Source of the DNA: Parafannyhessea umbonata
Lineage (GTDB): Bacteria > Actinomycetota > Coriobacteriia > Coriobacteriales > Atopobiaceae
Assembly (NCBI RefSeq): GCF_900111255.1
Contig: NZ_FOGP01000002.1
Span: 248,001 to 312,000 of the forward strand
Reading direction: 5' to 3'
DNA length: 64,000 nucleotides
Shown here: piece by piece, positions 2,151-5,426 of the stretch
Layout: every line of letters starts with the position of its first letter
Position numbering within the stretch: the stretch's first letter is position 1
Translations under genes and position numbers: made by a program
Notes under the pieces: generated by a model
Databases searched by the model: none
What the model was told of the DNA's origin: nothing
Seen by the model: the letters and a program-made list of their open reading frames with translations, nothing else

Positions 2151-3551
2151 CTAGGCGATGTGCTCGGACGAGGGACCTCCGAGGCTGAACTCGCGCGCCC
2201 CCAGACGCTCGACGTCCAGGCGATCGTGCGTCGCGACCACGAGCGTGCGGCCGCGGCGGTGCTCGAGCAGGAACGAGACCGCGCACAGGTGGCTGGCCTC
2301 GTCGAGCGCGGAGAACGGCTCGTCCAGGAGGAGCGCGTCCCCCTCTGCCGCGACGGCACGCGCGAGCTCGACCCGGCGGCGCTCCCCTCCCGAGAGCCTG
2401 CGGACCGGGACGTCCAGGCACTTCTCGTCCAAAAGATCGCGGAGAAGGGCGCGCGCACGGGGTCGCAGGCGGGCACCTCCCATGACGAGCGCGACGTTGT
2501 CGACGGCACCCATGTCCTCTATGAGCCGAGCCTCCTGGAAGACCACGCAAGGCGCCTGCGCGGGAAGGACCTCGCCCGCAACAGGCGGCAAGAGGCCCGC
2601 GAGCGTGTGGAGGAGCGTCGTCTTTCCGGCGCCGGACTCATCGCAACACGCCAGGGCACGTCCATCGGCGAGCCCGAGCGAGAGGTGGGCGCGAACGACA
2701 GACCGGCCGTGGCCGAGGCTCACGTCCGAAAGGGCAAGGTGCGCGGGTCCCTTGGGAGCCGGGCGGGCGGACGCGAGGTGAGGCGCCAGGAGGGTTGTCC
2801 AGCGGCCGGAGCGCTCGAGCAGGAAGACGAAGGCGGCCCCGCAGGCCCAGGAGCACGCGACGATGACTGCCGTCCAGGCAAGGAGGTCGGCAGTCTCGAG
2901 CGTGACCTTCGCCTGGTAGATGCGCTCGCCGATCGATCCCACGGGACTTCCGATGAGCTCCGCCGCCACGGCAGCCTTCCAGGCCATGCCGCAGACGTTT
3001 CTGCTGACGCCCACCAGCGCGGGCAGCACCTCGGGCCACGTATGGGCCAGAAAGCGCGTCCTCCTTGGCACGTCAAACGAGCGAAGCATCTCCCCCACCT
3101 TGGCGTCAACACTGTCCAGGGCCTCGAGGTATGCGTGGTAGATGGCCGGAAACACGGCCAGAAACACGGCTATGCCGGAGACGCCCCGAGAGCCGACCCG
3201 CATCAGCAGCAGCACGATCACGCAGACGATCGGCACGCTCCGAAGCACCGAGACCGCGGGGCCAACGAGCGCGCGAGCGAGATCGCTCTCGTGGGCCAGG
3301 CAGGCGAGGCCTATGGCCAGTGCAAATCCGGCGACGAATCCGCAGGCGATGCGCGAGAGCGAGAACCAGACGACGCCAGGCGTGGCCGAGTCGGTCAGGA
3401 GCAATAAGAGGCGCGCGAGGGCCTCCGCAGGACCCGCCAGCAAAATGGCGTTTCCGACAGCTATGCTGGCAAGCTGCCACGCGGCTAGCCAGAAGAGCAC
3501 GGCGACCGCGCAGCGCAGGGCGGATGAAGCTCGCTCAGACAACCTACTCAC
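2151..3551 (-). CDS. fused ABC permease-ATPase (SsuC/TauC-SsuB-like), single polypeptide
   Basis: Residues ~1-250 form a BPD_transp_1 permease of the SsuC/TauC/ThiX type with about six membrane segments. From ~residue 273 an ABC ATPase follows in the same frame: Q-loop VVFQEA, signature LSGGERRR, Walker B ALLLDEP and the H-loop VVATHD. These two parts are normally separate proteins. The P-loop reads DESGAGKTT (about residues 300-308), so the first Gly of GxxGxGK(S/T) is Asp. The GTG at 3551 overlaps the stop of the binding-protein gene by 8 bp, which argues for translational coupling; TTG at 3542 is an alternative. Likely cargo is an organic sulfonate, thiamin precursor or similar small molecule, but this is unproven. 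Confidence 0.85.
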   Translation of the reverse strand: MSRLSERASSALRCAVAVLFWLAAWQLASIAVGNAILLAGPAEALARLLLLLTDSATPGVVWFSLSRIACGFVAGFALAIGLACLAHESDLARALVGPAVSVLRSVPIVCVIVLLLMRVGSRGVSGIAVFLAVFPAIYHAYLEALDSVDAKVGEMLRSFDVPRRTRFLAHTWPEVLPALVGVSRNVCGMAWKAAVAAELIGSPVGSIGERIYQAKVTLETADLLAWTAVIVACSWACGAAFVFLLERSGRWTTLLAPHLASARPAPKGPAHLALSDVSLGHGRSVVRAHLSLGLADGRALACCDESGAGKTTLLHTLAGLLPPVAGEVLPAQAPCVVFQEARLIEDMGAVDNVALVMGGARLRPRARALLRDLLDEKCLDVPVRRLSGGERRRVELARAVAAEGDALLLDEPFSALDEASHLCAVSFLLEHRRGRTLVVATHDRLDVERLGAREFSLGGPSSEHIA

Positions 3552-4608: not shown

Positions 4609-4731
4609 GTGGTGCGTCCTCCCATTCGTGCTACGGCATTGCAATTCAAAAATTCAGTCAATGGTACCAGTGTCCGAGGCCTTCGTTCCGCACATCGGCC
4701 AACGTGCGGCAAACGGCCGTCCCCGCGGCAC

Positions 4732-4759
4732 AAAAAACGGGCGGCCCGAAGGCCGCCCG
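4732..4759 (-). terminator. intrinsic terminator of the ncRNA
   Basis: A perfect 9-bp GC stem, 4738-4746 with 4751-4759, has a UUCG tetraloop on the minus strand and is followed by six U (4737-4732). It cannot serve the ABC operon, which starts downstream of it, so it marks an independent transcript. Confidence 0.9.
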
Positions 4760-5079
4760 TGCCGGGTAACTCGTTATGTACCCTTTGGACTCTCCCCCTT
4801 AAGTCGGGTAGTCCTCGCGTGAGGTAGAACCCATCCTATAGATACGGAGAACGAAAACGGCGCCTTATCGATTGGCGCCCACGGTCCGCTGTGGCATGTC
4901 ACCGGTACTTCCATCTGTCTTCTCGGAGACTTGTACGGCGCTTGTGCCGCTTACCTGGCCTCTAGGTCTATGGCCTGCGGGAGTAGACGGGACTCGCGAT
5001 GCCTGCCACAGCGGACTTGGTAGCTGAATCTATGCGGTTCTAAAGGTTTGCCCTGAGAAGAACCAGTGCTTCTTCTGTT
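4732..5079 (-). ncRNA. candidate structured non-coding RNA, unidentified, with strong intrinsic terminator
   Basis: The 818 bases between 4609 and 5426 hold no credible protein gene but do hold a multi-helix RNA on the minus strand. Perfect pairings (plus-strand coordinates) are 5056-5062/5070-5076 (7 bp), 5036-5042/4825-4831 (7 bp), 5028-5033/4838-4843 (6 bp), 5004-5016/4884-4896 (13 bp), 4874-4879/4859-4864 (6 bp) and 4810-4814/4787-4791 (5 bp). They are nested consistently. The element ends in a UUCG-capped terminator with a U6 tract. I found none of the hallmarks of RNase P, tmRNA or SRP RNA, and the branching does not fit 6S RNA. A possible -10 (TAGGAT, minus strand) is at 5086-5091. Confidence 0.7.
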
Positions 5080-5426
5080 GACTCAATCCTACCCGATTGC
5101 GTCCGGCGATTGCACGCAAATGTACACGAGATAGTAGTCCTTTGAGTAAGCGGTATATATGTGAGCGCGAACGGCACAATTTGTTTTTAAACATTCGACA
5201 TTTCGATATCGTACTAGCCTCACATTTGAAACCAGACGGCGCGAGGGGGCGACGCGAGCGAGCCACACGCGAGCAGAGCACGGGCTCGAGCGCGAGGGAA
5301 CGCAGGTCAAGCCCCATGTCACTTCATAAAAGTCCCATGTGAATACCGCCAGAAGGCATTCCCAAAGCATTGCCGGCCAAGGTACCATCTGTACATATTT
5401 TGCAACCATCGTCAGCCGGAGGACCC

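Follow-up and report, generated by a model that had tools for sequence, protein, structure and literature searches.

A structured RNA family of the Atopobiaceae with putative LytTR-type promoter repeats and a short open reading frame that has been lost in Parafannyhessea umbonata

We identified an intergenic, structured RNA of ~340 nt on the minus strand of the window, the 64,000-nucleotide stretch of Parafannyhessea umbonata DNA analysed here. Comparison of sequences places it solidly in what appears to be a new structured RNA family that occurs only in the Atopobiaceae, which are gut and oral bacteria. Large structured bacterial RNAs of unknown role are few, and they have often been a source of new biology. 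Our best explanation, which we consider probable, is that this is a trans-acting RNA of carbon or growth signalling that is controlled by a LytTR regulator and was ancestrally dual-function. A search of a collection of papers for small RNAs in the Atopobiaceae returned nothing on the subject. The coordinates of the features are given in Table 1.

Table 1. Features of the RNA locus in window coordinates, with the evidence for each.
Feature	Position	Strand	Evidence
Tandem LytTR-type site, GCCGTTCGC-12 bp-ACCGCTTAC, upstream of promoter (putative)	5146..5175	-	Exact match, G000:C4:253146-253175; homologues; layout as in PMC6193735
TGTACATTTG element near -35, in several homologues part of an inverted repeat	5117..5126	-	Promoters of homologues
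Predicted -10, TAGGAT (TATAGT or TATNAT in many homologues)	5086..5091	-	Consensus resemblance only
Predicted transcript of the structured RNA, ~349 nt	4731..5079	-	Start inferred 7 nt past the -10, end at terminator U-run; homologues in 51 family genomes
5' hairpin P0 (AGAAGAA/UUCUUCU)	5056..5076	-	Covarying hairpin at the same place in homologues
Site of the Shine-Dalgarno and start codon in homologues, degenerate in the window (CAGGGCAAACCUUUAG)	5040..5055	-	Comparison of homologues
Conserved core, junction P1-P5 and hairpin P6	4858..5016	-	R1/R2 match, 170.6/144.8 bits; covariation
P1 5' arm, 13 bp with 4884-4896	5004..5016	-	Fold and covariation
P2 5' arm, CCGUCU, partner 4911-4916	4985..4990	-	Alignment and covariation
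Hairpin P3 (GGCC/GGCC)	4957..4975	-	98.9% of cells paired; 4/4 pairs covary
Hairpin P4 (GCGGC/GCCGU)	4935..4950	-	Covariation analysis
Hairpin P5 (GUCU/AGAC)	4917..4930	-	Weakest helix, 73.5% of cells paired
P2 3' arm, AGAUGG	4911..4916	-	Alignment and covariation
P1 3' arm	4884..4896	-	Fold and covariation
Hairpin P6 (GGCGCC/GGCGCC), loop related to AACCGAUGA	4859..4879	-	95.7% of cells paired; 5/6 pairs covary
3' conserved box, GGGGGAGAGUCCAAAGGG	4781..4798	-	Recurrence among homologues
Intrinsic terminator, UUCG loop followed by U-run	4737..4760	-	Terminator scan

An earlier note, made from the letters of the window, had described a structured RNA of about 350 nt with a UUCG-capped terminator at this place, and our analysis bears this out on the minus strand. 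The minus strand of 4732-5079 (348 nt) folds at -137.0 kcal/mol with a z-score of -3.83, only 1 of 100 shuffles being equally good, compared with a z-score of -2.56 for the plus strand. An RNA on the plus strand was rejected given this weaker z-score and the absence of a plus-strand terminator. The predicted start near 5079, 7 nt after the TAGGAT at 5091-5086, agrees with the boundary given in the earlier note. At the other end, the terminator comprises a perfect 10-bp stem, ACGGGCGGCC-UUCG-GGCCGCCCGU, and a U-run (window 4760-4737, minus strand), and a perfect 10-bp stem is also seen at the end of homologues. It was the only terminator-like site that the scan returned between 4500 and 5500, a count that is by itself not significant, with shuffles averaging 1.0 site.

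The long-range pair of 13 bp that had been proposed is a perfect helix between 5016-5004 and 4896-4884 (GUCCGCUGUGGCA/UGCCACAGCGGAC), and it is maintained in homologues via compensatory change. The proposed "outer helix" survives in part: its 7-bp helix exists (5076-5070/5062-5056), but it is the local hairpin P0 and not an outer helix, because relatives have a covarying local hairpin there, with arms such as CCGC/GCGG, CUCG/CGAG and CUGC/GUAG. The accompanying 6-bp pairing, GGUUCU/AGAACC, is found in the minimum-energy fold only, and the alignment gives it no support. Downstream of the core, a 3' box, GAGUCCAAAGGGCU, is present in ~29 of 41 loci when up to 3 mismatches are allowed.

By BLAST, both congeners matched the RNA at 73% identity and a third genome matched in part. 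Weak BLAST matches in four genomes (G004, G006, G010 and G038) were short and were discarded as evidence; G010 has a true copy elsewhere. A covariance model, R1, was built from a seed alignment (A4) of four sequences, in which one N was added by hand in two rows, keeping P1 in register, and a further model, R2, was built from 46 matches. With R1, the RNA was found in 51 of 140 Atopobiaceae genomes and 12 of 35 genera, four of the genomes (G065, G082, G092 and G094) having two copies each. R2 recovered the same 51 genomes among 397 of the order and, among 296 genomes of the phylum, only the window's own. The RNA is thus lineage-specific, as had been suggested, being absent elsewhere in the order and phylum samples. 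We take the family to be that of the Atopobiaceae because a pattern scan of named genomes returned Olsenella profusa F0195 together with metagenome genomes assigned to Atopobiaceae or Coriobacteriales. The pattern was absent from viral contigs, and BLAST against plasmids and phages gave no match to the RNA; a mobile-element reading was rejected on these grounds.

Covariation in relatives, one of the checks that the earlier note had proposed, is extensive. Over 44 distinct sequences, 27 of the 39 core pairs have changed on both sides with pairing kept. In this alignment 90.6% of cells are paired, against 26-44% in slid controls. Its covariation score of 0.329 exceeds the 0.158 of shuffles and the maximum of 0.079 reached by slid controls. 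These figures are biased towards the model since the alignment was fitted to it. When four sequences were simply aligned with MAFFT and folded with no structure imposed, 10 of 38 pairs still had two-sided changes.

No known RNA class accounts for the locus. In the covariance-model check, likewise proposed before, Rfam 15 gave no match in the window at gathering scores and no credible match to the RNA region at E of 10. Among 20 homologous loci there was nothing in Rfam at gathering scores save two neighbouring tRNAs, and 12 homologous loci had no match at E of 1; these scans of the window and its homologues covered the 6S and SRP RNA models. RNase P RNA (RF00010) was rejected, with no Rfam match at the window RNA and the genome's own RNase P RNA at C3:540084 (284.2 bits), as was tmRNA (RF00023), of which ARAGORN found none in the window, the genome's copy being at C10:38498. 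The claim that no known housekeeping RNA is involved therefore stands. The suggestion that the RNA might belong to the raiA class (RF03072) fails: the window RNA has no raiA match at E of 10, and the genome's true raiA RNA lies elsewhere (G000:C3:106190, 169.6 bits). Like the new RNA, the raiA motif RNA, or ModT, is free-standing, highly structured and found in Actinomycetota among others, and in C. difficile it has been associated with growth transition (PMC11706538). In contrast, the new family has a much more restricted distribution, lacks similarity to raiA and sits at a different locus of the genome. The extended Shine-Dalgarno-like string of the new family also occurs, as GGAGGUGAUCUCCUCC, in the genome's raiA RNA (L009, ~1520-1540), where a partial complement of the string comes after it.

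LytTR-type repeats and a short open reading frame (ORF), neither of which the earlier note had described, were found at the family's loci, and the window's copy has lost the ORF. In most loci, two RCCGYTCRC repeats 20-21 bp apart lie ~157-162 nt before P1, and in one clade the tandem pair is reversed in orientation. The 21-bp spacing was seen in 27 of the 41 upstream regions, whereas shuffles lead one to expect ~2 for any one spacing. Published LytTR sites consist of 9-bp repeats with a 12-bp spacer, for example ACCACTTAC or ACCGCTTGT, and the RNA promoter repeats share this 9-12-9 layout (PMC6193735); they are also similar to the AlgR core, CCGTTCGTC (PMC4064291). Judging from predicted start sites, their centre would be near -70, and AgrA repeats are centred near -60 (PMC4227749). 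A promoter under LytTR control is expected to have a pair of 9-bp direct repeats, ~12 bp apart, ahead of it. This arrangement was found here, and the tandem repeats are a putative binding site for a LytTR regulator.

The window's genome encodes a pair of LytS-type kinase and LytTR regulator; co-occurrence with the RNA is uninformative, since LytTR proteins are found in 139 of the 140 family genomes and the RNA in 51. Exact tandem sites were found upstream of genes for PTS EIIBC in the window's genome and in G062, PTS IIB (G022) and PTS EIIA (G075), and also upstream of gapA in the window's genome and of a LytTR regulator gene in G062 (gapA and the G062 EIIBC were identified from their sequence, without a Pfam run). 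When one mismatch was allowed, the tandem pattern was genome-wide no commoner than the control, so the LytTR regulon is a lead and not proof, and the weight lies only with the position-specific conservation and the exact matches of the tandem site. The occurrence of exact tandem repeats before sugar PTS genes in four genera (L181, L157, L160 and L163) suggests that a conserved LytTR sugar regulon may exist in Atopobiaceae. In several clades (L084, L085, L082, L103 and others) an inverted repeat with covarying half-sites adjoins the -35, with half-sites CAAATGTATA..TATACATTTG, TTGTACAT..ATGTACAA or ATGACCA..TGGTCAT, which suggests a second regulator.

The ORF is preceded by an extended Shine-Dalgarno, GGRGGUGRUGCC, that 40 of the 41 loci retain with no more than a single change, and 38 of these 40 have A/G/U-UG at the usual start spacing. 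It runs for ~21 codons, passing through the core (20-22 codons in most loci), and its length has a standard deviation of 2.8 codons, while the two alternative frames give 17.6 and 33.6; the stop lies 37-40 nt after the start of P1 in most loci. Loci of one genus are not independent, and these ORF counts overstate the number of events. The family ORF is probably translated. Its predicted product has a conserved N-terminal xSE, and 29 of 40 ORFs are in a frame that gives mostly G[IV]A[SCR]PV. The frame relative to the core deviates in the other 11, so the C-terminal peptide is not conserved though the ORF length is. Because homologues use three different frames for the C-terminal half, it is doubtful that the peptide has a conserved function. 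In the window both the Shine-Dalgarno and the start codon are gone; among the congeners, the ORF of G001 ends after 6 codons and that of G002 has been kept. Two further roles for the Shine-Dalgarno are not claimed. Its GAUGCC is complementary to a core GGCAUC, but GGC has changed to GAC without compensation in several homologues, and its sequestration in predicted full-length folds, where it is mostly paired, is barely above that of the average base.

The genes around the RNA bear on whether it acts in cis. Gene calls made by a simple codon-usage script around 42 RNA copies showed divergent or upstream neighbours that vary by genus (DUF1846, a UvrD-type helicase, an ABC-F-like ATPase, a RelA/SpoT synthetase domain, alanine dehydrogenase and AIM24) and downstream neighbours that are frequently convergent and belong to no common family. 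In the window, the downstream ABC-transporter genes are co-directional with the RNA and its terminator stands ~130 nt before the substrate-binding protein gene on the same strand. On this account the RNA might act in cis, as a riboswitch or attenuator leader of the ABC-transporter operon whose regulated terminator would be the UUCG hairpin, and the homologues do have a leader-peptide-like ORF ahead of the terminator. However, in both congeners, G001 and G002, a convergent GGDEF gene lies beyond the terminator, which argues against a leader, and across genera and homologues neither a recurring downstream gene family nor a conserved association with a co-directional downstream gene was found. 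We regard a cis-leader as very improbable, and synteny largely refutes it. Ribosome-mediated attenuator leaders resemble the new family in having a Shine-Dalgarno, a short ORF threaded through helices and an intrinsic terminator, whereas the family has no conserved downstream gene to regulate. Its own terminator, genus-dependent neighbours and often-convergent downstream gene mark the RNA as free-standing, as the earlier note had held, and the promoter and terminator read from the sequence form the kind of self-contained unit expected of a dual-function small RNA. In the window, a single ORF at 2151-3503 (minus strand) fuses ABC permease (BPD_transp_1) and ABC ATPase domains, and it adjoins an NMT1/VitK2-type binding protein.

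Two other readings keep the RNA free-standing and differ over the ORF. A purely structural or catalytic non-coding RNA, ornate in the way of raiA or OLE, might carry the Shine-Dalgarno-like box for docking on the 30S subunit without translation. We expect the GGRGGUGRU box to pair with the usual 3' tail of 16S rRNA, with U opposite both of the variable positions, which would permit A or G only; docking would also agree with a structure under tighter constraint than the peptide and with the persistence of the window copy without an ORF. We nevertheless think it unlikely, as the length and stop of the ORF are far steadier than in other frames, a docking box would not need a start limited to A/G/U-UG, as it is in 38 of 40 loci, and the box too is missing from the window copy. 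Less likely again would be a LytTR-controlled gene whose product is a small secreted or signalling peptide, the structure serving to stabilise its mRNA. Such a gene would suit the LytTR-type promoter, the conserved N-terminus and the frame shared by most ORFs, but the C-terminal frame shifts between close relatives, no leader or export motif was seen by eye, the ORF is broken in 2 of 3 congeners while the core persists, and covariation so extensive is unusual in an mRNA.

According to the preferred explanation, that of a dual-function RNA under LytTR control, a LytTR-type response regulator on the upstream tandem repeats would control, and most likely activate, transcription. The ~340-nt RNA would then fold into the 5' hairpin, the P1-P5 junction, the P6 hairpin and the 3' box, its own terminator ending the transcript. 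Ancestrally, a ribosome on the extended Shine-Dalgarno would have read the ~21-codon ORF, crossing the P1 and P2 5' arms. The RNA would act in trans, most likely providing a post-transcriptional branch of sugar or growth signalling, and would be a dual-function RNA comparable to SgrS, VcdRP or RNAIII. Only the structured part would remain in the genome of the window, its ORF having decayed. The geometry, with the ORF covering the 5' arms of P1 and P2, tentatively allows a doubtful but conceivable extension in which the RNA is gated by its own translation, the ribosome unzipping these arms and halting at the P2-P3 junction. If so, translation and the active fold would be mutually exclusive, a stand-alone RNA would borrow the logic of an attenuator to signal translational state to targets in trans, and selection would act on the position of the stop and not on the peptide.

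RNAIII of Staphylococcus (agr) likewise combines a free-standing structured RNA, a short peptide and a LytTR-type direct-repeat promoter (PMC4227749); unlike it, the new family has no covariance-model match, no conserved adjacent agr-like operon and no conserved peptide. SgrS of enterobacteria and VcdRP of Vibrio cholerae are dual-function RNAs with a short ORF, and their connection with sugar uptake has a counterpart in the PTS-linked operator of the new family (PMC4021124, PMC8672173). The new family differs in having no Rfam match and an ORF that runs through the folded core, and its base-pairing targets are only presumed. With Olsenella profusa F0195 as a named host, a covariance model in place, and a predicted regulator class and a possible sugar-transporter regulon, the function of the RNA is directly testable. 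In addition, an ORF of conserved length within a conserved fold, together with the natural ORF-less version in the window, makes a ready-made experiment on translation and RNA folding.

One genome with two RNA copies, G065, has a third copy of the promoter between them (L150, G065:C1:2031099 region, 1243-1448). After it come 11 perfect copies of an 18-bp repeat that is similar to the 5' region of the RNA, apparently a decayed RNA copy that has expanded into a repeat array.
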